Assembly (NCBI GenBank): GCA_934646865.1
Contig: CAKUEU010000056.1
Span: forward strand, 1-11,518
Direction of reading: 5' to 3'
Length of the DNA: 11,518 bases
Origin: an uncultured Collinsella sp.
Lineage (GTDB): Bacteria; Actinomycetota; Coriobacteriia; Coriobacteriales; Coriobacteriaceae
The position numbers and the translations under genes are program-made. Below, piece by piece: positions 1-11,516 of the stretch; position 1 is the first letter of the stretch; each line of letters starts with the position of its first letter. The notes below the pieces were generated by a model that saw nothing but the letters and a program-made list of their open reading frames with translations, was not told the origin of the DNA and searched no databases.

Positions 1-2018
1 CTGCGGGCCTTCACGTTGTCGCGCAGCTGCATGCCCATGTACTCGTGCACCAGGGCGCGGCAGGTGGGGTCGAGCACGGGGAAGGCGATCTCCACGCGGT
101 GCTCGGTGTTACGCGTCATCATGTCGGCGGAGCTCAGGTAGATCATGTCCGAGTCCACGCCAAAGGCGTACACACGTGCATGCTCCAAAAAGCGTCCGAC
201 AATGGAGCGAACATGCACGTTTTCGGTCTTGCCTGGGACGCCGGGCTTGAGGCACGAGATGCCGCGGATGATCATGTCCACGCGGACTCCTGCGCACGAT
301 GCCTCGGCGATCTTGTCGATAACCTCGCGGTCGGTGAGCGAGTTGAGCTTAAAGAACACACGGGCGGGCTCGCCGGCAAGGGCGCGCTGAATCTCGCGGT
401 CCAGACCGCGCATGATGAGCGGCTTAAGGCCGACGGGCGCCACGCCCAGGAAGCGATAATCTCCGCGCAGGTTGCCCAGTGACAGGTTGCGGAAGAACAG
501 GTTGGCGTCCTCACCGATGCCGGGATGGGCGGTCATGAGCATAAAGTCGCTGTAGAGCTTGGCCGTCTTTTCGTTAAAGTTGCCGGTGCCCAACAGCGTC
601 AGGCGCGTAAGCGCCATGCCCTCGCGATAGGTGAGCTGGCAGATCTTGGAGTGGCATTTAAAGCCCTCAGAGCCGTAGATGACGGTGCAGCCGGCCTCTT
701 CCAGGCGCTCGGCCCACTCGATGTTGTTCTGCTCGTCGAAGCGGGCGCGGAGCTCCATAAGCACCGTGACCTCTTTGCCGTTCTCGGCGGCGTCGATGAG
801 CGACTCGCACAGGCGGCTCTGCTTGGCCACGCGGTAGAGCGTGATGCGCAACGAGATGCACTCGGGGTCGTAGGCTGCCTCGTGAACCAGGTCCAAGAAC
901 GGGTTCATGGCCTCATAGGGATAAAAGAGCAGCTTGTCGTGCTGCAGCACCTGCTCGCGGATGGAACGGGTCATGTCGATGGTGGGGTTGGGCTGCGGTT
1001 TGAACGGCGTAAAGAGCAGCTCGTTGCGCAGGTGCTCGGGAATCTTACCCTCAATGCCAAAGACATAGCCCAGATCGAGCGGGATATCGCAAGTAAAGAC
1101 CGAGCGGCGCGAAAGCTCGAGTGCCTTGCGGATGGTCTTGAGTGTTTGCTTCTCGAGCGAGCCCGAGACGGCGAGCACTACCGGCTGCAGGCGCAGGCGC
1201 TTCTTGAGGATGCGCTTCATGTGCTGGCGGTAGTCCTCTTCCTCCTCGACGCCCTCGCCGTCCGGATCGATGTCGGCGTTGCGGGTGACGCGGATGAGCG
1301 CGCGGTCGAGCGGCTTATAGGAGCCAAAGCAACTGTCCAGGCAGGCGAGGATGACGTCCTCGAGCAAGATGTAGGAGTAGGTGCCGGTGGGCGAGGGGAT
1401 CTCGACCACGCGGTTCATCGAGGCGGGAATCTCGATGAGGCCCAGCAGGCTCTCCTCGTCGGTGACACCGTCCAGGCCGCAAGCCAGGTAGAGTGCACCG
1501 TTACGCAGGTTGGGGAAGGGGTGGCGCGGGTCGATGACCAACGGCGAGATGACCGGCGACACGTAGGCCTGGAAGTAGCGGGTGACAAAGGTGCGCTCCT
1601 CGGGCGTAAGCGAATCGACGCGCGCGCGGTGAACACCCAGGGCGTCGAGCTTGCCCTCGATGCTCTTGAAAATGGACTCCCAGCGGTCGAGGAGCCCGGG
1701 CAGCTCCGCCACGACGGCTTCGACCTGCTCAGAGGCAGTCATATTACTCTTGTTGTCGACGGGTTGCTTTTTGAGTTCGGCCAGGTCGGACAGGCCGCCC
1801 ACGCGGACCATAAGGAACTCGTCGAGGTTGGACTCGAAGATCGAGACGAACTTTAGGCGCTCGAACAGCGGCACGGACTCATCGAAAGCCTCATCGAGCA
1901 CGCGGTTGTCAAAGCGTAGCCAGCTGAGCTCTCGATTCTGCGTGTACGAGAAGTCGCGCGGCGGCTTGCGCAGCTTTGCGGCGGCTTGCTTCTTTTCGAT
2001 TTTGCTCGGCATATGCAT
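1..2018 (-). CDS. ppk1: Polyphosphate kinase 1, C-terminus cut by window edge
   Basis: The minus-strand frame is open from an ATG at 2018 to the window edge (672 codons, no stop), so the gene is partial only at its 3' end. PPK1 reversibly moves the terminal phosphate of ATP onto polyphosphate chains. Family marks seen: HPFPNLRNGALYL near residues 166-178, SLRITLYRVA near 389-398, the first active-site histidine in CHSKIC (His456) and the second in GRFLEHARVYAF (His613). These two match E. coli His435 and His592 with the same +21 offset, which predicts about 35-40 missing C-terminal residues. I chose the ATG at 2018 over the in-frame ATG at 2012 because a GGGGA tract lies about 12 nt upstream of it; an in-frame stop lies just beyond. 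It is divergent from the arc genes; a functional tie is not shown. Confidence 0.97.
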   Translation of the reverse strand, partial: MHMPSKIEKKQAAAKLRKPPRDFSYTQNRELSWLRFDNRVLDEAFDESVPLFERLKFVSIFESNLDEFLMVRVGGLSDLAELKKQPVDNKSNMTASEQVEAVVAELPGLLDRWESIFKSIEGKLDALGVHRARVDSLTPEERTFVTRYFQAYVSPVISPLVIDPRHPFPNLRNGALYLACGLDGVTDEESLLGLIEIPASMNRVVEIPSPTGTYSYILLEDVILACLDSCFGSYKPLDRALIRVTRNADIDPDGEGVEEEEDYRQHMKRILKKRLRLQPVVLAVSGSLEKQTLKTIRKALELSRRSVFTCDIPLDLGYVFGIEGKIPEHLRNELLFTPFKPQPNPTIDMTRSIREQVLQHDKLLFYPYEAMNPFLDLVHEAAYDPECISLRITLYRVAKQSRLCESLIDAAENGKEVTVLMELRARFDEQNNIEWAERLEEAGCTVIYGSEGFKCHSKICQLTYREGMALTRLTLLGTGNFNEKTAKLYSDFMLMTAHPGIGEDANLFFRNLSLGNLRGDYRFLGVAPVGLKPLIMRGLDREIQRALAGEPARVFFKLNSLTDREVIDKIAEASCAGVRVDMIIRGISCLKPGVPGKTENVHVRSIVGRFLEHARVYAFGVDSDMIYLSSADMMTRNTEHRVEIAFPVLDPTCRALVHEYMGMQLRDNVKAR

Positions 2019-2047
2019 CTGTCCGTTCAGTCCCCACAGGGGACGGT

Positions 2048-2075
2048 AGCCTAACACTAATCACTATTGTCTCAA
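2048..2075 (-). promoter_or_regulatory. Possible ppk1 promoter
   Basis: On the minus strand TTGAGA (2075-2070) and TAGGCT (2053-2048), the latter preceded by TG as in an extended -10, are 16 bp apart. Transcription would start near 2041, about 23 nt before the ppk1 ATG. The -10 is a weak match, so this is a candidate only. Confidence 0.35.
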
Positions 2076-2206: not shown

Positions 2207-2245
2207 TATGAATAAGAATAAGTAGGTGCTGAATATTATCCAAGT
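2207..2245 (+). promoter_or_regulatory. Paired ArgR-like boxes upstream of arcA copy 1
   Basis: Two AT-rich segments, 2207-2224 and 2228-2245, each carry TGAATA, with the TGAAT cores at 2209 and 2230, that is 21 bp apart. Known ArgR/AhrC operators are two 18-bp boxes separated by about 3 bp, with TGAAT half-sites, so the arrangement fits. The inverted ATTCA halves are poor (the second box reads TGAATATTATCCA). The same pair occurs at the same distance (360 bp) from arcA copy 2. ArgR is the usual arginine-responsive regulator of deiminase genes in Gram-positive bacteria; its role here is inferred. Confidence 0.45.
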
Positions 2246-2420
2246 TACATCGAATCGTAGGCAGACGTTAGTTATATACAGAAAACCGATTTAGCTATGC
2301 AATTCCGAATCATGAATTTCTTTGTTCGATCGCTTGCGATTCTTAAGAAAAAAGAGCGTCTAGCTTTAAATTTCTGCTTTACAAAGCCGAAGTACATCAT
2401 GGGGAATCATATGCGATATA

Positions 2421-2447
2421 CCGTTCATCGAACTTTGCTGACCGTTC
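2421..2447 (+). promoter_or_regulatory. CCGTTC direct-repeat operator, arcA copy 1
   Basis: CCGTTC occurs at 2421-2426 and again at 2442-2447, exactly 21 bp apart, two helical turns. The proximal box starts 39 bp before the TATAAC element, so the pair would sit at about -50 and -70 from the transcript start, a usual place for an activator. The copy upstream of arcA 2 has the same spacing and the same distance, although the bases between the boxes differ. The binding protein is unknown. Confidence 0.55.
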
Positions 2448-2457
2448 GGGGGCGAGG

Positions 2458-2486
2458 TGGAATTACAGGTGCATTTTGGATATAAC
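2458..2486 (+). promoter_or_regulatory. arcA copy 1 promoter (-35/-10)
   Basis: TATAAC at 2481-2486, inside the conserved string TTTTGGATATAA, is the likely -10. TGGAAT at 2458-2463 stands 17 bp upstream and is a poor -35, as expected for an activated promoter. The second arcA has TGGAAG-17-TATAAA at the same distance from its ATG (88 bp from -10 to ATG in both), which is the main support. Confidence 0.6.
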
Positions 2487-2503: not shown

Positions 2504-2552
2504 AGCGTCCCAAACGGAGGGGCGCTGATACATTCGGCCAGTAAGGCCCGAA
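2504..2552 (+). promoter_or_regulatory. Structured 5' leader of arcA copy 1, two hairpins
   Basis: Hairpin 1 pairs AGCGTCCC (2504-2511) with GGGGCGCT (2519-2526) around the 7-nt loop AAACGGA. Hairpin 2 pairs TTCGGCC (2533-2539) with GGCCCGAA (2545-2552), with one bulged C and a 5-nt loop. The leader of arcA copy 2 forms the same two hairpins from a different sequence, with the same bulge. The hairpins end just before the ribosome binding site, so they could affect translation or mRNA life. No known riboswitch class is recognised. Confidence 0.5.
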
Positions 2553-2553
2553 A

Positions 2554-2566
2554 GAAAGGTAGGAGG
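2554..2566 (+). promoter_or_regulatory. Tandem Shine-Dalgarno of arcA copy 1
   Basis: Two ribosome-binding motifs are seen: GAAAGG (2554-2559), 9 nt before the ATG, and AGGAGG (2561-2566), only 2 nt before it. The stronger motif is unusually close to the start codon, so the upstream one may be what is used. The arrangement is identical in front of arcA copy 2. Confidence 0.6.
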
Positions 2567-2568
2567 CC

Positions 2569-3810
2569 ATGACGAAAGGTCTGCACGTGCCTTCCGAGAT
2601 CGGCAAGCTCAGGAAGGTCTGCCTGCACCGTCCCGGCGACGAGCTCCTCAACCTGCCGCCCGACGAGCTCGAGCGACTCCTGTTCGACGACGTCCCGTTC
2701 CTGGAGGTCGCACAGCAGGAGCACGACACCTTCGCCCAGATCCTGAGGGACCAGGGCGTGGAGGTCCTCTATCTCGAGAACCTCGTCGCGGAGGTGTTCG
2801 ACCAGGTCCCCGGCGCCCGCGCCGAGTTCACCGACCAGTACATCGCCGAGGCAGGCATCCGCGGCCAGCACATGCCGCAGATCGTCCGCGAGAAGCTGGA
2901 CTCCATCGAGGACAACCTCGAGTTCGTCAAGAAGACCATGGCCGGCATGACCAAGTCCGAGATCGAGATGCCCCTCACGGCCTCCACGACCCTCGACTCC
3001 CTGGTCAACTCCGAGTCCGAGTCCGACCTGATCATCGACCCGATGCCCAACCTCTACTTCACCCGCGACCCGTTCGCGGTCGTCGGCGAGGGCGTCAACC
3101 TCAACCGCATGTACTCGGTCACCCGCAACCGCGAGACCCTGTACGGCAAGTACATCTTCAAGTACCACCCCGACTACAAGGACGTCTCGCTGTACTTCCG
3201 CCGCGACTGCCAGTTCCACACCGAGGGCGGCGACGTGCTGAACATCAACGAGAAGACCCTCGCCGTCGGCATCTCCCAGCGCACCCAGGCCGCCGCGATC
3301 GACGTCATGGCCCAGAACATCTTCTGGAACTCCGACTCCAAGGTCGAGCGCATCCTGGCCTTCGACATCCCGGTCTCGCGCGCCTTCATGCACCTCGACA
3401 CGGTCTTCACCCAGATCGACGTCGATAAGTTCACGATCCACCCCGCCATCATGGGCACCCTGCGCGTCTACGAGCTGACCGCCGGCAAGAACCCGGGCGA
3501 CGTGAACATCCGCCTGATCGAGGACACCCTCGAGCACGTCCTGGAGGACGCCACCGGCGTCGACCAGGTCAAGCTGATCCCCTGCGGCGGCGGCGACCCG
3601 ATCGCGGCCTCCCGCGAGCAGTGGAACGACGGCTCCAACACCCTGTGCGTCGAGCCCGGCAAGATCTGCGTCTACGCCCGCAACACCGTCACCAACGACG
3701 TGCTGTACAAGGAGGGCCTGGACCTTCTCGTCGTGCCCTCCGCCGAGCTCTCCCGCGGCCGCGGCGGCCCGCGCTGCATGAGCATGCCCTTCTGGCGCGA
3801 GGACCTCTAA
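2569..3810 (+). CDS. arcA: Arginine deiminase, copy 1
   Basis: The 413-residue cytoplasmic enzyme hydrolyses L-arginine to L-citrulline and ammonia, the first step of the deiminase pathway, giving energy and acid protection. Length is normal for the family. Active-site marks are all present: FTRDP (164-168, Asp167), EGGD (219-222, Glu219), MHLDTVF with His275 and Asp277, and the nucleophile Cys403 in GGPRCMSMPF near the C-terminus. It is the first gene of an arcA-arcD-arcT unit and has its own promoter, operator pair and structured leader. Codon use is more extreme (almost all C/G-ending) than in the arcD gene that follows, which suggests very high expression. The protein is identical to that of arcA copy 2. 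Confidence 0.98.
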   Translation: MTKGLHVPSEIGKLRKVCLHRPGDELLNLPPDELERLLFDDVPFLEVAQQEHDTFAQILRDQGVEVLYLENLVAEVFDQVPGARAEFTDQYIAEAGIRGQHMPQIVREKLDSIEDNLEFVKKTMAGMTKSEIEMPLTASTTLDSLVNSESESDLIIDPMPNLYFTRDPFAVVGEGVNLNRMYSVTRNRETLYGKYIFKYHPDYKDVSLYFRRDCQFHTEGGDVLNINEKTLAVGISQRTQAAAIDVMAQNIFWNSDSKVERILAFDIPVSRAFMHLDTVFTQIDVDKFTIHPAIMGTLRVYELTAGKNPGDVNIRLIEDTLEHVLEDATGVDQVKLIPCGGGDPIAASREQWNDGSNTLCVEPGKICVYARNTVTNDVLYKEGLDLLVVPSAELSRGRGGPRCMSMPFWREDL

Positions 3811-3871
3811 GGTCTTCAAGGACCCGTACAGGTCTTAATACATACATCTAGCTGCTATTAGATGTCTCCCA

Positions 3872-3904
3872 TTGGGGCGGTGCGGATCTTTCGCACCGCC
3901 CCAA
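3872..3904 (+). terminator. Strong hairpin between arcA copy 1 and arcD
   Basis: A perfect 13-bp GC-rich stem (3872-3884 with 3892-3904) has a 7-nt loop. It is followed by ACTTCTTTA rather than a clean T-run, so it may be a leaky terminator or a 3'-end stabiliser giving more arcA than arcD message. An in-frame ATG at 3862 lies just upstream of this stem and is unlikely to be the arcD start. Confidence 0.6.
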
Positions 3905-3948
3905 ACTTCTTTAATGACGTTAAATTAACAACAGATAAGGTGACCGTT

Positions 3949-5427
3949 ATGTCTAAAGACAGTCACGTCGACAACCCCAACGGTGTCGGCTTTTTTGGCC
4001 TTGTCGGCATGGTCGTTTCCTCCTGCATCGGCACGGGCGTGTTCGCTCTGACCGGTCAGCTCGCTAACGTCGCTTCCCCCGGTGCCGCACTCGTCGCTTG
4101 GGTCGTTTGCGGCCTGGGCTTTTTGATGCTGGCGCTCTCGCTTGCCAACATCGGCTCCAAGCGCCCCGATCTCGATGGCGCTTGCGCCTATGCCGAGGAG
4201 GGCTTTGGCCCCTTCCACGGATTTATTTCGGGCTGGGGCTATTGGCTTTCGGCCTGGCTCGGTAACGTCGGATTTGGCACCATGATCGCTCAGGTTCTGG
4301 GTTCCGATTATTGCCTGGGCACGATCATGCCCGGCGTGTTCTCGGATCCTGTGACCGGTAACCCTGCCGTCGTCGGCGTCGTTGTCGTGTCGCTCGTCCT
4401 GTGGGGCATCACCTTCCTGGTCATTCGCGGCGTCGAGAGCGCTGCGGCATTCAACGCGATCGTCATGGTCATTAAGATTGCCTCCATCCTGCTGTTCATC
4501 GCGTTCTCCTGCTTTGCCTTTAACGCCGGCGTGTTCACCGCCGATTTCTGGGGTACCGCTGCGCGCAACGCCACGATCGTCGCCGCGAACGATGTTGAGC
4601 TCGGAAGCGTTGCCAACCAGGTCACGCAGTGCATCCTCATCATGATGTGGGTCTTCATCGGCGTCGAGGGCGCTTCGGTCATGTCCGGTCGCGCCAAGCG
4701 TAAGAGTGAGGTCGGCTCCGCCACCATCATCGGCCTGATCGTTCTGCTGACCCTCTATATCGGCGCTTCCGTCATTCCGTATGGCGTTGTGGATTACGCC
4801 GACCTGGTTGCGGCTCCCAAGCCCGCCACCATTACCGTGTTCGAGCAGCTTGCTCCCGGCTGGGGCGGCGCTTTCATCTCCTGGGCTATCATCATCTCGG
4901 TGTGCGGGTCCTGGCTGTCCTTTACCATGCTTCCCGCCGAGGTCTCCTCGATGATGGCCGATCACGGCCTGCTGCCCAAGTCGTGGGGCGAGGTCAACGC
5001 CAAGGGCGCTCCGCAGATGGCCCTGATTATCGTCGGTGCACTGACCGAGGCATTCATCATCATCGCAACGTTTGCCGCCGACGCCTACACCTTCGCCATC
5101 TCCATGTGCACCGTGACCATCGTCGTCACCTGGGCCTATGCCGCGGCGTATCAGGTTAAGTTCTCCCGTGAGCGCGGCGAGACGGGCCAGATGCTCATCG
5201 GTATCCTTGCCCTGGTGTTCCAGGTCGTGGGCGTGCTCTTTACCGGCTGGGGCTTCCTGCTGCTGGCCTGCCTGGGCTATATCCCCGGCTTCCTGTTCTA
5301 TCGCAAGGCGCTCTCCGAGTCCGGTCAGTCCATGGGTAAGGGACAGGTCATCTGCGCGGTCGTTATCGCCATCCTGGGCATCATCTCGATTCCCATGACC
5401 TTTGCCGGCATCATCCCCGTGTTCTAG
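3949..5427 (+). CDS. arcD: APC-family arginine/ornithine antiporter
   Basis: A 492-residue, very hydrophobic protein of the amino acid-polyamine-organocation superfamily, basic amino acid antiporter group. The helix-1 substrate signature SSCIGTGVF (24-32) and the following pattern of about twelve membrane helices are seen; RGVESAAAFNAIVMVIKI marks helix 6 in ArcD-like antiporters (about residues 163-180). It would exchange external arginine for ornithine at the membrane; exchange for citrulline is possible here because the unit lacks arcB. I chose the ATG at 3949 because AAGGTG lies 7 nt before it; the longer frame from 3862 would start inside the arcA-arcD hairpin region. It is 16 bp from the aminotransferase gene, so the two are co-transcribed. 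Confidence 0.9.
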   Translation: MSKDSHVDNPNGVGFFGLVGMVVSSCIGTGVFALTGQLANVASPGAALVAWVVCGLGFLMLALSLANIGSKRPDLDGACAYAEEGFGPFHGFISGWGYWLSAWLGNVGFGTMIAQVLGSDYCLGTIMPGVFSDPVTGNPAVVGVVVVSLVLWGITFLVIRGVESAAAFNAIVMVIKIASILLFIAFSCFAFNAGVFTADFWGTAARNATIVAANDVELGSVANQVTQCILIMMWVFIGVEGASVMSGRAKRKSEVGSATIIGLIVLLTLYIGASVIPYGVVDYADLVAAPKPATITVFEQLAPGWGGAFISWAIIISVCGSWLSFTMLPAEVSSMMADHGLLPKSWGEVNAKGAPQMALIIVGALTEAFIIIATFAADAYTFAISMCTVTIVVTWAYAAAYQVKFSRERGETGQMLIGILALVFQVVGVLFTGWGFLLLACLGYIPGFLFYRKALSESGQSMGKGQVICAVVIAILGIISIPMTFAGIIPVF

Positions 5428-5443
5428 CGATTGGAGCCTAGCC

Positions 5444-6568
5444 ATGGATATCAAGACGATCGGCGTTGAGGAGTGGCTCAACGTTTGGGAGAAGAGCGCT
5501 ACGTGGGATATCGCCCAGTCGACGATCTCGTCGCTCACCATGGGCGAGCTGCGCGCGCTCGACGAGCAGGACGGCGCCACGTTCTACGAGCGCCTGGACC
5601 GCGAGAAGATGAACTACGGCTGGATCGAGGGCTCGCCCGACTTTAAGGCCGAGGTCGCCAAACTCTATCGTCGCGAGGTCAATCCCGATCATATTCTGCA
5701 GACCAACGGCTGCACGGGCGCGAACCTCAATGCCATCATGGCGGTGGTCGAGCCCGGCGACCATGTCATCGCCGAGTGGCCCACCTATGCGCCGCTCTAC
5801 GAGATTCCGCGTACGTTGGGCGCCGAGGTCGAGTACTGGGAGCTTCGCGAGGAGCTCGGCTGGAAGCCCGATATCGAGGAGCTCAAGCGCCTGGTGCGTC
5901 CCAACACCAAGCTCATCTGCATCAACAACGCATCGAACCCCATCGGTACGGTGCTCGATGCCGATACGCTCGGCCAGATTGCCGAGATCGCCCGCTCGGT
6001 GGGCGCCTACGTGCTGTGCGACGAGGTGTACCTACCGCTCGAGAACACCGAGTCCTTCATGTCGATGGCCGACGTGTACGAGAAGGCCATCGTCACCAAC
6101 TCCGTGTCCAAGACCTATTCGACGCCTGCGGCCCGCGTGGGCTGGGTTGTGGCCGACGAAGAGGTGTCTAACCGCATCCGCACCTATCGTGACTACACCA
6201 TGATCTGCGGCGGCGTGTTCAACGACGCCCTGGCAACCTACGTGCTCGAGCACAAGGACAAGATCCTCGAGCGCAACCGCAAGATCGTGTTTGGCAATCG
6301 CGATATCGCGCAGGCGTGGATCGATACGCAGCACCGTGTCTCCTGGACGGCCCCGCAAGGCGTTTCCACCTCGTTTATCCAGCTGGATATCCCTGGGGAC
6401 GACGAGGAGTTCTGCAAGCGCCTGCTGGCCGAGAGGGGGGTGCTGCTGGTGCCCGGCAGCCGCTTTGAGCTTCCCTGCGGTGCACGCCTGGGTTACTGCG
6501 CGAGCGAGGACGTTCTGCGCGAGGGCTTAAGGCTTTTGGGCGAGGCGCTGGCGGAGTTCGATCGCTAG
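5444..6568 (+). CDS. arcT: PLP-dependent aminotransferase, ArcT-like
   Basis: A 374-residue fold-type I aminotransferase (class I/II). Visible marks are YGWIEGSPDFK (58-68), NGCTGAN (88-94), Asn165 in NASNPIG, CDEVY with Asp193, the PLP lysine Lys223 in SVSKTYS, ARVGW with Arg231, and Arg348 in ARLGY, expected to hold the substrate carboxylate. TTGGAG (5431-5436) sits 7 nt before the ATG. A transaminase named arcT occurs in deiminase clusters of lactobacilli and enterococci, so place and family agree; its substrate is not established there either. NASNPIG departs from the usual NPNNPTG loop. A relationship to capreomycidine-synthase-like enzymes, which act on arginine derivatives, is an alternative I cannot test. 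It is the last gene of unit 1. Confidence 0.8.
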   Translation: MDIKTIGVEEWLNVWEKSATWDIAQSTISSLTMGELRALDEQDGATFYERLDREKMNYGWIEGSPDFKAEVAKLYRREVNPDHILQTNGCTGANLNAIMAVVEPGDHVIAEWPTYAPLYEIPRTLGAEVEYWELREELGWKPDIEELKRLVRPNTKLICINNASNPIGTVLDADTLGQIAEIARSVGAYVLCDEVYLPLENTESFMSMADVYEKAIVTNSVSKTYSTPAARVGWVVADEEVSNRIRTYRDYTMICGGVFNDALATYVLEHKDKILERNRKIVFGNRDIAQAWIDTQHRVSWTAPQGVSTSFIQLDIPGDDEEFCKRLLAERGVLLVPGSRFELPCGARLGYCASEDVLREGLRLLGEALAEFDR

Positions 6569-6615
6569 GATTCCGACGGTCCTCGAAAGCCGTTCATAAC
6601 TGCCTACGATTATCG

Positions 6616-6656
6616 AAAACAGGCCCGTTCCCCACGAGGGGAGCGGGCCTGTTTTT
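6616..6656 (+). terminator. Rho-independent terminator of arcA-arcD-arcT
   Basis: A long stem (6616-6633 with 6638-6655, one G-T pair) around the tetraloop ACGA is flanked by an A-run and a T-run (TTTTT at 6652-6656). It lies 48 bp after the arcT stop and, because of the flanking A-run, could also stop minus-strand transcription. Confidence 0.95.
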
Positions 6657-6734
6657 CTATACCTAGAAGTCAAGTTGTTACAAATGGAGCCGTAGGACAA
6701 GCGAGTATCCGCTGGGCCTTATACTGAGCTTCCG

Positions 6735-6765
6735 GTGAACGGTACCAAGCGTCTGGTAAACGGTA
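6735..6765 (-). promoter_or_regulatory. Inverted CCGTT box pair, 21-bp spacing
   Basis: GTGAACGGTA (6735-6744) and GTAAACGGTA (6756-6765) are 21 bp apart; on the minus strand they read TACCGTTCAC and TACCGTTTAC. They have the core and spacing of the arcA operator pair but the opposite orientation, about 260 bp upstream of the pair at 6994. No minus-strand gene lies next to them. Confidence 0.45.
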
Positions 6766-6779
6766 ATTTGTTTACTAGA

Positions 6780-6818
6780 AATGAATAGGACAAACTTTTT
6801 TCTGAATAAAAATGAAAA
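6780..6818 (+). promoter_or_regulatory. Paired ArgR-like boxes upstream of arcA copy 2
   Basis: TGAAT occurs at 6782 and 6803, 21 bp apart, inside two 18-bp AT-rich segments. The second, TCTGAATAAAAATGAAAA, agrees with the Bacillus ArgR/AhrC box in 13 of 18 positions by my count. Both TGAAT cores are 4573 bp from those at 2209 and 2230, the same offset as the two arcA starts. The site was therefore kept while surrounding bases changed. Confidence 0.5.
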
Positions 6819-6832
6819 TGGTTGAGACGCGG

Positions 6833-6856
6833 TATGAATCGCTAATTCTATTCATA
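6833..6856. promoter_or_regulatory. TATGAAT-N10-ATTCATA dyad
   Basis: A perfect 7-bp inverted repeat with a 10-bp spacer lies 309 to 286 bp upstream of arcA copy 2. It resembles an operator for a dimeric regulator, possibly another ArgR half-site arrangement. No equal dyad is seen at the matching place upstream of arcA copy 1. The rest of 6857-6993 is AT-rich and without a gene; its only other conserved island is TATGCAATT at 6870-6878. Confidence 0.3.
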
Positions 6857-6993
6857 GCTTTATTGGAAATATGCAATTTGAGGGTGGTTTATCAAAGATT
6901 CGTTCCATTCGATATTTGGATTGAAAACACGTTTAAGCACGTAAATACACTTTATTATGACGAAGTGTGCCATGCGTGAAGTATATGTGTATG

Positions 6994-7020
6994 CCGTTCA
7001 CCCCCTATAAAAAACCGTTC
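6994..7020 (+). promoter_or_regulatory. CCGTTC direct-repeat operator, arcA copy 2
   Basis: CCGTTC at 6994-6999 and 7015-7020 are 21 bp apart, and the proximal box starts 39 bp before the -10 TATAAA. Spacing and distance equal those upstream of arcA copy 1, while the 15 bp between the boxes share little sequence. Confidence 0.55.
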
Positions 7021-7030
7021 GGGGGCAAGG

Positions 7031-7059
7031 TGGAAGTATGAGCTGATTTTGGATATAAA
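7031..7059 (+). promoter_or_regulatory. arcA copy 2 promoter (-35/-10)
   Basis: TGGAAG (7031-7036) and TATAAA (7054-7059), 17 bp apart, match the copy 1 promoter in place and in the context TTTTGGATATAA. The poor -35 fits activation from the CCGTTC boxes just upstream. Confidence 0.6.
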
Positions 7060-7076
7060 TATGTCGTCAGCAATAA

Positions 7077-7124
7077 CGCCTCACACGGAGGGGCGCTAAC
7101 GAATCGGCCCCGACAAGGGCCCGA
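7077..7124 (+). promoter_or_regulatory. Structured 5' leader of arcA copy 2, two hairpins
   Basis: Hairpin 1 pairs CGCCTC (7077-7082) with GGGGCG (7090-7095), with a 7-nt loop ACACGGA. Hairpin 2 pairs TCGGCCC (7104-7110) with GGGCCCGA (7117-7124), with one bulged C and a 6-nt loop. Compared with copy 1, the 5' arm of hairpin 1 and the inner pairs of hairpin 2 differ in sequence but still pair, which supports an RNA role. Confidence 0.5.
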
Positions 7125-8384
7125 AAGAAAGGTAGGAGGCCATGACGAAAGGTCTGCACGTGCCTTCCGAGATCGGCAAGCTCAGGAAGGTCTGCCTGCA
7201 CCGTCCCGGCGACGAGCTCCTCAACCTGCCGCCCGACGAGCTCGAGCGACTCCTGTTCGACGACGTCCCGTTCCTGGAGGTCGCACAGCAGGAGCACGAC
7301 ACCTTCGCCCAGATCCTGAGGGACCAGGGCGTGGAGGTCCTCTATCTCGAGAACCTCGTCGCGGAGGTGTTCGACCAGGTCCCCGGCGCCCGCGCCGAGT
7401 TCACCGACCAGTACATCGCCGAGGCAGGCATCCGCGGCCAGCACATGCCGCAGATCGTCCGCGAGAAGCTGGACTCCATCGAGGACAACCTCGAGTTCGT
7501 CAAGAAGACCATGGCCGGCATGACCAAGTCCGAGATCGAGATGCCCCTCACGGCCTCCACGACCCTCGACTCCCTGGTCAACTCCGAGTCCGAGTCCGAC
7601 CTGATCATCGACCCGATGCCCAACCTCTACTTCACCCGCGACCCGTTCGCGGTCGTCGGCGAGGGCGTCAACCTCAACCGCATGTACTCGGTCACCCGCA
7701 ACCGCGAGACCCTGTACGGCAAGTACATCTTCAAGTACCACCCCGACTACAAGGACGTCTCGCTGTACTTCCGCCGCGACTGCCAGTTCCACACCGAGGG
7801 CGGCGACGTGCTGAACATCAACGAGAAGACCCTCGCCGTCGGCATCTCCCAGCGCACCCAGGCCGCCGCGATCGACGTCATGGCCCAGAACATCTTCTGG
7901 AACTCCGACTCCAAGGTCGAGCGCATCCTGGCCTTCGACATCCCGGTCTCGCGCGCCTTCATGCACCTCGACACGGTCTTCACCCAGATCGACGTCGATA
8001 AGTTCACGATCCACCCCGCCATCATGGGCACCCTGCGCGTCTACGAGCTGACCGCCGGCAAGAACCCGGGCGACGTGAACATCCGCCTGATCGAGGACAC
8101 CCTCGAGCACGTCCTGGAGGACGCCACCGGCGTCGACCAGGTCAAGCTGATCCCCTGCGGCGGCGGCGACCCGATCGCGGCCTCCCGCGAGCAGTGGAAC
8201 GACGGCTCCAACACCCTGTGCGTCGAGCCCGGCAAGATCTGCGTCTACGCCCGCAACACCGTCACCAACGACGTGCTGTACAAGGAGGGCCTGGACCTTC
8301 TCGTCGTGCCCTCCGCCGAGCTCTCCCGCGGCCGCGGCGGCCCGCGCTGCATGAGCATGCCCTTCTGGCGCGAGGACCTCTAAG
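7118..8384 (+). repeat. Long direct repeat, copy 2 (arcA)
   Basis: Second copy of the identical tract at 2545-3811, in the same orientation at an offset of 4573 bp. Such a long identical pair could recombine and loop out arcD and arcT, or act as a donor for gene conversion. Confidence 0.93.
7142..8383 (+). CDS. arcA: Arginine deiminase, copy 2
   Basis: The protein (413 residues) is identical to copy 1, with the same FTRDP, EGGD, MHLDTVF and Cys403 active-site marks, the same tandem Shine-Dalgarno and the same start. It heads a different unit, arcA-arcB-permease, which can carry arginine on to ornithine and carbamoyl phosphate. It has its own promoter, CCGTTC operator pair and hairpin leader. 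Since the enzymes cannot differ in activity, the second gene must matter through dose, timing or what it is co-transcribed with. The identity, against a diverged upstream region, points to gene conversion or a recent replacement of one copy by the other. Confidence 0.98.
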   Translation: MTKGLHVPSEIGKLRKVCLHRPGDELLNLPPDELERLLFDDVPFLEVAQQEHDTFAQILRDQGVEVLYLENLVAEVFDQVPGARAEFTDQYIAEAGIRGQHMPQIVREKLDSIEDNLEFVKKTMAGMTKSEIEMPLTASTTLDSLVNSESESDLIIDPMPNLYFTRDPFAVVGEGVNLNRMYSVTRNRETLYGKYIFKYHPDYKDVSLYFRRDCQFHTEGGDVLNINEKTLAVGISQRTQAAAIDVMAQNIFWNSDSKVERILAFDIPVSRAFMHLDTVFTQIDVDKFTIHPAIMGTLRVYELTAGKNPGDVNIRLIEDTLEHVLEDATGVDQVKLIPCGGGDPIAASREQWNDGSNTLCVEPGKICVYARNTVTNDVLYKEGLDLLVVPSAELSRGRGGPRCMSMPFWREDL

Positions 8385-8489: not shown

Positions 8490-9485
8490 ATGGGTGTTAA
8501 CCTCTCCGGCCGTAGCTTCCTCAAGCTCCTCGACCTCACCACCGAGGAGATCGAGTACCTGCTCAAGCTCTCCAAGAACTTCAAGGACATGAAGCGCGCT
8601 GGCGTTCCGCACCGCTATCTCGAGGGCAAGAACATCGTCCTGCTCTTCCAGAAGACTTCCACCCGTACCCGCTGCGCCTTCGAGGTCGGCGGCATGGATC
8701 TGGGTATGGGCGTCACCTACCTCGATCCCGGTTCGTCGCAGATGGGCAAGAAGGAGTCCATCGAGGACACCGCTCGCGTTCTCGGCCGCATGTATGACGG
8801 CATCGAGTTCCGCGGCTTTGCCCAGGACGACGTCGAGGAGCTTGCTGCTAAGTCCGGCGTGCCCGTGTGGAACGGCCTGACCACTGAGTGGCACCCCACC
8901 CAGATGCTCGCCGACATCCTGACCGTCCAGGAGAACTTCAACTACGACATCAAGGGCAAGACCCTCGTCTTCATGGGCGACTGCAAGAACAACGTCGCTC
9001 GCTCCCTCATGGTCGTCTGCTCCAAGCTCGGCATGAACTTCGTGGCCTGCGGCCCCGAGGAGTGCATGCCCGCTGACGACGTCATCGAGGCCTGCAAGCC
9101 CATCGCCGAGGCCAACGGCTGCACCATCAAGCTGACCACCGACGTCAAGGACGGCGTCACCGGCGCTGACGTTCTCTACACCGACGTGTGGGTCTCCATG
9201 GGCGAGCCCGACGAGGTCTGGGCCGAGCGCATCGCTCAGCTCACCCCGTATCGTGTCACCTCCGAGGTCATGGCTATGGCCAACCCGGGTGCCATCTTCC
9301 TGCACTGCCTGCCCAGCTTCCACGACACCAACACCACCATTGGCGCCGAGAAGTGCGAGCAGTTCGGCATCACCGAGCAGGAGGTCACCGACGAGGTCTT
9401 CGAGAGCCCCGCTTCCAAGGTCTTCGATGAGGCCGAGAACCGCATGCACACCATCAAGGCTGTCATGTACGCCACGCTCAAGTAA
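8490..9485 (+). CDS. arcB: Ornithine carbamoyltransferase, catabolic
   Basis: The 331-residue cytoplasmic enzyme interconverts citrulline plus phosphate and ornithine plus carbamoyl phosphate. Carbamoyl-phosphate loop STRTR (57-61), HPTQ (135-138), the ornithine-binding DVWVSMGE (232-239) and HCLP (272-275) are all present, and the length is that of the family. GAAAGGA (8475-8481) is an evident ribosome binding site 8 nt before the ATG. The place, 106 bp after arcA and before a permease, makes the catabolic direction likely. An anabolic ArgF would look similar by motif, but no arginine biosynthesis gene is nearby. Carbamate kinase, the usual next gene, is not in the window. Confidence 0.95.
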   Translation: MGVNLSGRSFLKLLDLTTEEIEYLLKLSKNFKDMKRAGVPHRYLEGKNIVLLFQKTSTRTRCAFEVGGMDLGMGVTYLDPGSSQMGKKESIEDTARVLGRMYDGIEFRGFAQDDVEELAAKSGVPVWNGLTTEWHPTQMLADILTVQENFNYDIKGKTLVFMGDCKNNVARSLMVVCSKLGMNFVACGPEECMPADDVIEACKPIAEANGCTIKLTTDVKDGVTGADVLYTDVWVSMGEPDEVWAERIAQLTPYRVTSEVMAMANPGAIFLHCLPSFHDTNTTIGAEKCEQFGITEQEVTDEVFESPASKVFDEAENRMHTIKAVMYATLK

Positions 9486-9598: not shown

Positions 9599-9633
9599 AG
9601 AGTTAAATGATTTATGAAGGGGGGATGAGAACC

Positions 9634-11112
9634 ATGACTGAGACCGCTAAGAAAAAGCGCGGTATGCCTTCATCGTTCACCATTCTTCTTGCTCTGCTGG
9701 CAATTGTCGCAGTGATTACCGTTATCGTCTCCGGCACGTCCGGCGGCGAGGTTACTGCAGCCCGCCTGAGTGATTTCTGCACCGCCCCGATTTTGGGCTT
9801 CGCTGACGCTCTGCCCGTCTGCCTCTTCGTTATGATCCTGGGTGGCTTCCTCGGCATGATGACCGAGACCGGCGCTCTGGACAACGGCATTGCCGTTCTG
9901 GTGCAGAAGCTTAAGGGCAACGAGATCATGCTCGTTCCCGTGCTGATGCTCATCTTCTCCCTCGGTGGTACCACCTATGGTATGTGCGAGGAGACCGTTC
10001 CCTTCTACGCCCTGCTCGCCGCTACCATGATGGCCGCTGGCTTCGACCCCATGGTCGGTGCCGCTACCGTCCTGCTCGGCGCTGGCTGCGGCTGCCTGGG
10101 CTCCACGGTTAACCCGTTCGCCGTCGGCGCTGCCGTCGACGCTCTGACCGGCGTTGGCATTGAGGTCAACCAGTCCATCATCATCGGCCTTGGCGCCGTC
10201 CTGTGGATTGTCACCACCGCTATGTCCATCGTCTTCGTGATGAACTATGCCAAGAAGGTCAAGGCCGACAAGGGTTCCACCATCCTTTCGATGCAGGAGC
10301 TCGAGGATGCCGAGGCCGCCCACGGTAAGGCTGCTTCTGAGGTTAACAAGGAGGTCAAGCTCACCGGTCGTCAGAAGGGTGTCCTGATCGCCTTCGCCTT
10401 CACCTTTGTCGTCATGATCGTCGGCTTCATCCCGCTGGCCGACCTCAACGAGGGCGTCGCCAACTTCTTCGATGCTGGCGCTGTCTACGACGCCGACGGT
10501 AACACCGTCGTCCAGGGCTGGTCTGCCCTGATCACCGGCCTGCCCATTGGCCAGTGGTACTTCGACGAGGCTTCCACCTGGTTCTTCCTCATGGCTATCC
10601 TGATCGGTATCATCGGTGGCCTGTCCGAGAAGCAGATCGTCAACACCTTCATCACCGGCGCTGCCGACATGATGTCCGTTGTTCTCGTCATCGCCCTCGC
10701 CCGTGGTATCTCCGTCCTCATGGCTAACACCGGCCTCGACGTCTACGTCCTCGACGCTGCCGCCAATGCCCTGGCTGGCCTGTCCGGCGTGATCTTCGCT
10801 CCCATGAGCTTCCTGGTCTACTTCGGCCTGTCCTTCCTGATCCCCTCGACCTCCGGTATGGCCACCGTCTCCATGCCCATCATGGGACCGCTGGCTGTCA
10901 AGCTCGGCTTCTCACCCGAGGTCATGGTCATGATCTTCTCCGCCGCCATCGGTGTCGTGAACCTGTTCACCCCGACCTCCGGCGCCATCATGGGCGGCCT
11001 CGCCCTGGCCAAGATCGAGTGGACGACCTGGCTCAAGTTTGCCCTTAAGCTCATCGTCGCTCTCTCCGTCGTCTGCGCCGTTATCCTGACCGTCGCCTGC
11101 GTGATGCTCTAA
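9634..11112 (+). CDS. YfcC/ArcD-type (DcuC-like) amino acid permease
   Basis: A 492-residue membrane protein of the YfcC group (C4-dicarboxylate anaerobic carrier-like family), unrelated to the APC antiporter of unit 1. Marks seen: a first helix at 14-33 after a basic MTETAKKKRG, GGTTYGMCEETVPFY (111-125), GCGCLGSTVNPFA (151-163), ARGISVLM (356-363), IPSTSGMATVSMPIMGPLA (403-421) and LFTPTSGAIMGGLALAKI (444-461). I chose the ATG at 9634 because the purine tract AAGGGGGG ends about 9 nt before it; in-frame ATGs at 9607 and 9625 lie before or within that tract. Members of this family accompany deiminase genes in other bacteria, so arginine uptake or arginine/ornithine exchange is likely here, but the substrate is inferred. 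A dicarboxylate or peptide substrate cannot be excluded. Confidence 0.85.
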   Translation: MTETAKKKRGMPSSFTILLALLAIVAVITVIVSGTSGGEVTAARLSDFCTAPILGFADALPVCLFVMILGGFLGMMTETGALDNGIAVLVQKLKGNEIMLVPVLMLIFSLGGTTYGMCEETVPFYALLAATMMAAGFDPMVGAATVLLGAGCGCLGSTVNPFAVGAAVDALTGVGIEVNQSIIIGLGAVLWIVTTAMSIVFVMNYAKKVKADKGSTILSMQELEDAEAAHGKAASEVNKEVKLTGRQKGVLIAFAFTFVVMIVGFIPLADLNEGVANFFDAGAVYDADGNTVVQGWSALITGLPIGQWYFDEASTWFFLMAILIGIIGGLSEKQIVNTFITGAADMMSVVLVIALARGISVLMANTGLDVYVLDAAANALAGLSGVIFAPMSFLVYFGLSFLIPSTSGMATVSMPIMGPLAVKLGFSPEVMVMIFSAAIGVVNLFTPTSGAIMGGLALAKIEWTTWLKFALKLIVALSVVCAVILTVACVML

Positions 11113-11342: not shown

Positions 11343-11344
11343 AC

Positions 11345-11440
11345 GGGCACCAGAGCGACAACTTGTCATTCAAAGAGGCCGGCATGACCAAAAGGTCTAT
11401 GCCGGCCTCTTTTCATGCCAATTTGTTCGCTCTGGCACCC
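11345..11440. terminator. Bidirectional terminator inside a longer inverted repeat
   Basis: The core is a perfect 14-bp stem, 11372-11385 with 11399-11412, topped by GACC-AAAA-GGTC, with an A-run before and a T-run after, as for a terminator working in both directions. Around it CCAGAGCGA (11350-11358) pairs with TCGCTCTGG (11427-11435), extended outward by GGG/CCC. The whole nested structure spans about 96 bp and holds no believable gene. Confidence 0.65.
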
Positions 11441-11480
11441 GTTCGCTCATATGACCCAATCCGCTGTCAAGAGCCACAAT

Positions 11481-11516
11481 GGCCCCGCCGACCGCTTGCA
11501 ATCGGTCGGCGGGGCC
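11481..11516. terminator. GC-rich hairpin at the window edge
   Basis: A 14-bp perfect stem (11481-11494 with 11503-11516) encloses an 8-nt loop. The sequence is cut two bases later, so a T-run on the plus strand cannot be judged; on the minus strand none follows. Probably a terminator of a gene beyond the window. Confidence 0.45.

Follow-up and report, generated by a model that had tools for sequence, protein, structure and literature searches.

How can two genes of one locus stay identical at every base when the sequences on either side of them have drifted apart? The question is raised by arcA, the gene for arginine deiminase, which is present twice within 11,518 nucleotides of an uncultured Collinsella sp. 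(contig CAKUEU010000056.1 of assembly GCA_934646865.1). This whole stretch is called the window, and all positions are counted along it. Judged by its relatives, the window belongs to the Collinsella aerofaciens group, and the same locus with the same two-copy layout is found in one C. aerofaciens strain and three Collinsella sp. records (L051-L054). Comparison of the sequences indicates that the two arcA copies have very probably overwritten each other repeatedly by gene conversion, with their promoters diverging around them. The elements on which this reading turns are the following:

2545..3811, forward strand: identical tract, copy 1, with a 24-nt leader containing a ribosome-binding-site-like GGAGG, arcA1, and 1 nt past the stop codon
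7118..8384, forward strand: identical tract, copy 2, an exact match to 2545-3811
2569..3810, forward strand: arcA1, arginine deiminase of 413 amino acids (TIGR01078, 496.5 bits, cut-off 489.1)
7142..8383, forward strand: arcA2, arginine deiminase with an identical protein, assigned by its match to arcA1
2209..2486, forward strand: predicted promoter P1, with TGAAT at 2209 and 2230, TATACA at 2275, TATGCA at 2296, ACCGTTC at 2420 and 2441, and a -10-like TATAAC at 2481-2486
6782..7059, forward strand: predicted promoter P2, with TGAAT at 6782 and 6803, TATTCA at 6849, TATGCA at 6870, CCGTTC from 6993 and 7014, and a -10-like TATAAA at 7054-7059

A preliminary description of this DNA had stated that 2545-3811 equals 7118-8384 at every base and that the identity stops inside the leader and one base past the stop codon. 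Direct comparison confirms both statements, as 1267 of 1267 bases are identical with no extra matching base on either side. The tract is made up of 24 bases 5' of the ATG, the 1242-base gene including its stop codon, and one base 3'. An exact repeat of 1267 bases is far beyond chance, and the products of arcA1 and arcA2 are the same 413-residue enzyme. The sliding-window comparison suggested in that description was carried out with 50-base windows at the 4573-bp offset between the copies. Upstream of the tract, identity is partial: it reaches 0.44-0.62 in windows that begin at 2350-2500 and 0.44-0.54 in those beginning at 2175-2200, and is 0.16-0.40 in the rest from 1900 on. On the downstream side it drops to background (0.24) as soon as a window lies entirely past the tract. 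P1 and P2 can be aligned over approximately 350 bases, with many mismatches.

The words listed for P1 and P2 were read from the sequence. The P2 words sit at the 4573-bp offset from their P1 counterparts or one base off, and in both promoters they form pairs with a 21-bp period (two TGNATA, two TATNCA, and two CCGTTC) followed by TATAA. Of the upstream islands that had been claimed at this offset, the TGAAT pair, the CCGTTC pair, and the -10 lie as described, whereas TATGCAATT has an offset of 4574, one base more. A distribution survey of 43 genomes of the same genus yielded 13 with two full arcA copies, nearly identical to the query, which together with the window form the two-copy set (n = 14) used below. 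The closest genome available for comparison has 27% of sampled words in common with the window. Across this set the P1 words are conserved among the P1 promoters and the P2 words among the P2 promoters. Over the 376 bases upstream, with four P1 sequences that contain N runs dropped (G011, G004, G041, and G042), the median identity is 82% for P1-P1, 90% for P2-P2, and 54% for P1-P2 within one genome. P1 and P2 resemble each other more than either resembles the 13 outgroup promoters in the comparison (0.38-0.51, and 0.31-0.34 for G002). A search for the P1 form of the site returned one site per genome in four genomes, every time P1. LytTR-type operators consist of two direct repeats approximately 12 bp apart, placed just upstream of the -35. 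By eye, the LytTR consensus fits each of the two repeats in P1 but, in P2, the second repeat only, and the strict two-repeat pattern taken from this consensus matches 0 of 14 outgroup promoters. An activator that may act on the CCGTTC pair is proposed. Words similar to the array of two TGNATA and two TATNCA (2209-2301 in P1, 6782-6875 in P2) are also seen by eye in the outgroup alignment.

Under gene conversion, each copy should resemble its partner in the same genome more than its positional orthologue in another, and this is what was found. The two arcA copies of one genome differ by at most one base in 13 of the 14 cases (by 7 in G004), while between genomes the differences are 1-16 bases for copy 1 and 2-17 for copy 2, with medians of 8. 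The within-genome differences sum to 10, versus a mean of 103 and a minimum of 45 when copy 2 is dealt at random among the 14 genomes, and none of 100,000 such shuffles is as low. For the window together with G040, G024, G001, and G008 (one contig of 2.31 Mb, then three, three, and ten contigs; most other assemblies are drafts), the true pairing gives the fewest differences among all 120 that are possible. There are 36 variable columns in the 28 copies, 26 of which agree within all 14 genomes and none of which separates copy 1 from copy 2. Grouping by position, a pattern that the preliminary description had set against its own proposal, is thus supported by no variable column of the gene within the C. 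aerofaciens group. Furthermore, a tree that holds all copy-1 genes in one clade is rejected by the approximately unbiased (AU) test (p = 6e-5; the 10 groups of identical rows were not constrained). The promoters group by position and arcA by genome. The end of the tract after the stop codon is common to 14 of 14 genomes and the 24-base leader end to 13 of 14, the leader in G003 being 95 bases. The shuffles, the AU test, and the positional grouping of the promoters support the earlier suggestion that gene conversion or overwriting explains the locus better than a fresh duplication does.

Between species, arcA is also far more conserved than its flanks. Identity between species is 99.4% for arcA versus 92-98% for a pyridoxal phosphate (PLP)-dependent aminotransferase gene (AT), ppk, arcD, and argF, the neighbours described below. 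Median differences at four-fold degenerate sites are 2.4% for arcA, 4.3% for tuf, 8% for arcD, 9% for argF, 18% for ppk (from the 67 of 91 pairs of equal length), and 21% for AT, with overlapping ranges for arcA (0-4.3%) and tuf (0-6.8%). The effective number of codons of arcA is approximately 25.

Leaders that switch from one promoter type to the other provide further evidence of exchange. Switches were scored at 101 columns at which the 12 other P1 and 14 other P2 sequences share no state. The leader of the single copy in G018 is of P1 type up to -59 and P2 type from -45, that of G013 is P1 to -35 and P2 from -32 (with one column that is neither), and the copy-2 leader of G003 is P2 to -101 and P1 from -83. 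The switches in G018 and G013 would fit a deletion between the repeats, and that in G003 would fit a conversion tract running past the gene. These joins lie in shared words (approximately 13 bases in G018, by eye) that are shorter than an ordinary assembly join would need. In G054 the leader is purely of P1 type and AT is missing, a state that would fit either a crossover inside arcA or a collapse. Copy loss appears to have occurred in two or three lineages of the group. The preliminary description had held that relatives with one arcA only would speak against it. Such relatives exist, but they are outgroups or lineages of the group that have apparently lost one of the copies, and in two of these lineages the leader is a P1/P2 hybrid.

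The remaining genomes of the survey vary in copy number and in the state of the gene. Both arcA positions are present in G012, with N runs inside each copy; G018 and G054 have a single full arcA of near-query type; G013 has one arcA, in two pieces on separate contigs; in G010, G019, and G043 just the ends of arcA are present, at contig ends; and the search of the 43 genomes gave no arcA match in G044. A further 19 genomes carry one full arcA at 76-89% to the query, and three have no full arcA of this kind (G045, 54% only; G051, a fragment; G053, none). The contig-end fragments in G010, G019, and G043 look like the result of repeat collapse. More generally, the drafts G010, G013, G019, G043, and G044 either lack arcA or have it interrupted by the end of a contig, and gene counts from such drafts are unreliable at this locus. 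Frames of 52-58 codons resembling a miniature arcA in G003, G011, G004, and G042 were considered as the remnant of a third copy, a reading that was rejected. Those in G003, G011, and G004 abut N runs of 96-98 bases and are read as scaffold overlaps; G042 has 94 N in the leader. Separately, some C. aerofaciens-group genomes carry another pair of arginine-deiminase genes, diverged from the first and oppositely oriented, at 55-58% and 32-40% to the query (G003:C31, 3-7 kb; G012:C2, 80-85 kb; G042:C3, 61-66 kb; G024:C1, 974-978 kb).

Several points weigh against repeated conversion. Six of the seven differences between the G004 copies alter the protein, and these copies may be drifting or may contain a draft error. 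The gene is so conserved that several genomes are only 1-3 bases away from the copy of a neighbour, and some genomes therefore say little when taken singly. Identical copies can also be made by an assembler in draft genomes, which most of these are, G040 being the only one in one contig; all three hybrid leaders likewise come from drafts, and an N run lies within a few bases past arcA2 in G003. An intact duplication of the whole operon, from which the locus may have begun (see below), was seen in none of the examined genomes. Finally, part of the pattern may come not from conversion within the cell but from recombination between species, which could carry one allele to both positions. An extreme form of this last process, in which alleles travel between species into both positions with little exchange inside the cell, would account for the greater identity of arcA than of its flanks between species and for G001, whose two copies hold the two states of one between-genome variable site. 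It is nonetheless very unlikely, as both copies would need to be replaced each time within flanks that they do not share, 13 of the 14 genomes match within one base, and the hybrid leader of G003 would still need exchange between positions.

A recent duplication in each lineage separately, with no time for divergence, would be in keeping with the absence of any difference between the copies in the window and with the ease with which tandem copies arise. However, lineage-specific copies would bring the promoter along, whereas P1 and P2 are each conserved by position across genomes yet only 54% alike, and the two-copy genomes have one layout and, with the exception of the leader end in G003, the same tract ends. 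Such an origin is highly improbable. It is scarcely credible that one copy was read twice during assembly. N runs do occur in or beside arcA in G003, G011, G004, G012, G041, and G042, and contigs end in arcA in G010, G013, G019, and G043, but an identical repeat itself causes contig breaks at the gene, and AT and P2 are unique sequence separating the copies. Both copies are also present in G001 and G024 and in the single contig of G040, indicating that the identity is not an assembly effect alone. Next to no probability attaches to strong selection at every base, synonymous bases included, acting without conversion. The low four-fold median and effective number of codons show that arcA is highly constrained, but a single optimum cannot yield variants shared within genomes at 26 columns, nor hybrid leaders.

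The preferred reading, repeated conversion between the arcA copies, leaves the question of how one locus came to hold two of them, for which the surrounding genes are informative. From left to right, the order is divergent neighbour, P1, arcA1, APC antiporter, AT, P2, arcA2, argF, and arcD. The genes other than arcA are:

3..2060, reverse strand: divergent upstream neighbour, an open frame of 686 amino acids, presumably ppk (polyphosphate kinase)
3949..5427, forward strand: APC-family basic amino-acid antiporter, nearest to arginine-ornithine antiporters (TIGR03810, 475 bits, below the cut-off of 591)
5444..6568, forward strand: AT, the PLP-dependent aminotransferase (NF005593, 534.7 bits, above the cut-off of 476)
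8490..9485, forward strand: argF, ornithine carbamoyltransferase (TIGR00658, above cut-off)
9628..11112, forward strand: arcD, a DcuC/YfcC-type carrier named by its position (PF03606, 271 bits, above cut-off; NF008611 YfcC, 202 bits, below the cut-off of 500)

Carbamate kinase lies away from this locus in all eight genomes searched. Past arcD, at 11343-11516 of the window, are inverted repeats (approximately 100 bp at 80%, 36 bp at 94%, and a 28-bp hairpin) whose length varies among relatives.

In the outgroups G006 and G047 the order arcA-argF-arcD-APC-AT is present once, while G016, G022, G023, G046, and G055 have arcA-argF-arcD with AT further on (cut by a contig end in G023) and no APC match between. 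Given the single outgroup arrangement, the layout of the window fits a duplicated operon whose two units were reduced to arcA-APC-AT and arcA-argF-arcD. Of 23 genomes searched, AT at 96% or more is found in 14, namely the 13 two-copy genomes and G012 only. APC at 78% is found among those 23 in G006 only, the others having none or relatives at 33-44%; G047 also carries APC at 78%. The antiporter was not found at this locus in the 13 two-copy relatives, and the window is the fullest retained state of the split layout. A scar that consists of the first and last codons of APC is visible by eye between arcA1 and AT in G004, G052, and G012. At approximately 6370-7200 of L040 (G012), a short transposase-like frame, probably IS200-like, is inserted between arcA1 and the APC scar.

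The simplest history appears to be operon duplication followed by complementary loss. The ancestral arcA-argF-arcD-APC-AT would have undergone duplication on the branch leading to the C. aerofaciens group, after which the upstream unit would have lost argF-arcD and the downstream unit APC-AT, placing P1-arcA1-APC-AT beside P2-arcA2-argF-arcD, as suggested by gene order and the scars. Homologous recombination between the arcA copies, presumably by RecA, has since repeatedly overwritten one with the other, as the concerted sites and hybrid leaders show. Homology ends at the diverged leader and at the unrelated sequence past the stop codon, and conversion ends there too. The promoters can thus drift apart save for shared regulatory-looking sites, and the enzyme stays one sequence in two transcription units. 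The repeats may also recombine out, removing one copy and AT in a few lineages. The likely role of the arrangement is a high, doubly regulated dosage of arginine deiminase.

Conversion also offers a possible explanation for the base composition of arcA. The GC content at third codon positions (GC3) of arcA is 0.978 in the two-copy set versus 0.912 in single-copy relatives. Subtracting the median GC3 of the outgroups (up to 14, with 10 for ppk, 12 for arcD, and no tuf match in G014) from the median of the two-copy set gives +0.067 for arcA, versus -0.050 for argF, -0.075 for arcD, -0.099 for ppk, -0.045 for tuf, and -0.079 for gap. Genome-wide searches, which covered tuf and gap, gave one match per genome for each, above the family cut-off in the case of tuf. 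GC3 is higher in arcA than in argF in 16 of 16 group genomes (the 14 of the two-copy set, G018, and G054; median +0.092), versus 2 of 16 outgroups (G014 and G002; median -0.026), a set that includes G049, of low GC, and G023, both of which are excluded from the 14 outgroups used for GC3 and codons. With the outgroup majority taken as the ancestral state at four-fold columns, GC-ancestor columns now with A or T, fixed or segregating, number 6/110 in arcA, 37/97 in argF, 32/99 in arcD, 79/173 in ppk, 20/118 in tuf, and 26/121 in gap (Fisher p for arcA versus the others, from 1e-14 for ppk to 0.007 for tuf). At columns where the outgroups are mixed, mean GC went from 0.713 to 0.929 in arcA and from 0.726 to 0.734 in argF, and fell in the other four genes. 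The first 59 codons of arcA have a lower GC3 (0.906).

Codon choice changed in the same direction. GCT makes up 5/345 alanine codons in arcA, 244/383 in tuf, 251/487 in gap, and 130/336 in argF, and in the outgroups 64/414 in arcA and 27/361 in argF; CGT counts are 14/309 in arcA versus 155/292 in tuf. As a rule, tuf and gap are strongly expressed genes, and the favoured codons were taken from these two only. The shifts thus indicate that arcA moved away from the codons of strongly expressed genes while its operon partner argF moved towards them. The rise in GC3 and the loss of T-ending codons, seen in one gene of one clade whose genomes are not independent, point to GC-biased conversion, the weight of which is debated in bacteria. 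It is suggested only tentatively, and with the balance somewhat against it, that ectopic conversion is GC-biased here and strong enough to override translational selection. If so, the arcA pair would be a natural experiment, in which only the converted gene of the operon gained GC3 and nearly lost T-ending codons, and the same bias would explain the median synonymous divergence of arcA below that of tuf. Replacement of arcA on the stem by that of a GC-richer relative is a possible alternative for the rise; quick protein trees leave the place of the group unsettled.

Multiple arcA copies were also found in another family. In G025, G127, and G203, one arcA lies by argF and another by APC-AT, 0.57-0.92 Mb apart (L246/L247, L254/L255, and L261/L262), with copy identities of 98.8%, 91.6%, and 77.4%, respectively; the 15 differences in G025 are all at third positions. 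This split suggests that one arcA per module arose more than once, or is old. In the eight multi-copy genomes besides G025, with the other-genome match taken for one copy per pair, the copies are clearly closer to each other than to those of the other genomes compared in G127 only, G231 is mixed, and the other six are not closer within; most multi-copy sets in that family group by position. GC3 of arcA is above that of argF by 0.024-0.046 in G025 and G127, and below it in G203, G191, G082, G090, and G111 (the last by 0.002), whose copies are not closer within the genome. In G231 and G094, however, arcA is also above argF without clear homogenisation. Against tuf, G025 shows no rise: arcA GC3 is below that of tuf in G025 and above it in four of five related genomes, at least one of the five being multi-copy. 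The indication that a GC rise repeats in homogenised arcA elsewhere is suggestive at most.

Gene conversion is a known process, and what appears new here is arginine deiminase as the converted gene, together with the GC3 rise. No report of converted arginine-deiminase genes was found among the matches listed from the open-access literature. With this locus, a catabolic enzyme of a common gut bacterium joins the genes kept identical by conversion, with promoters drifting around fixed sites. As one operon holds a gene that is converted and another that is not, codon selection and GC-biased conversion, which are usually confounded, can be separated. There is also a practical consequence for methods that credit C. 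aerofaciens with arginine deiminase from gene counts: their outcome varies with the counting of arcA as one gene or two, and arcA copies may be lost or broken in draft assemblies. A PICRUSt-based study of rheumatoid arthritis (PMC7230781) is an example of the use of such methods.

The closest parallels come from other converted genes. Mammalian X palindromes (PMC8981503) resemble the arcA pair in being intrachromosomal, near-identical copies with a history of GC-biased conversion, and differ in being large palindromes of mammals. According to PMC4450053, GC-biased conversion had earlier been excluded in bacteria; it predicts that GC-ending codons rise, and that optimal AU-ending codons possibly fall, in recombining genes, a contrast treated there as the sign that separates it from codon selection. 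The arcA gene shows the predicted pattern. That work compares recombining with non-recombining genes and contains no words starting with "paralog", "duplicate", or "multicopy", whereas arcA is converted by a paralogue from its own genome, with the operon partner as the control. The 26 long-lasting, concertedly evolving prokaryotic genes of PMC6053082 are like arcA in that paralogues are closer within species, at synonymous sites as well, and concerted evolution limited to coding regions is discussed there. The term "arginine deiminase" does not occur in the main text of that paper, and unlike those genes the arcA case spans one species group only. The model system is the conversion of tufA and tufB in Salmonella (PMC5485169). 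The arcA copies, in contrast to tufA and tufB, are separated by 3-4.6 kb and face the same way, with deletion between them as a further outcome, and the case differs further in involving a catabolic enzyme, in Collinsella, with a rise of GC3 in the converted gene.

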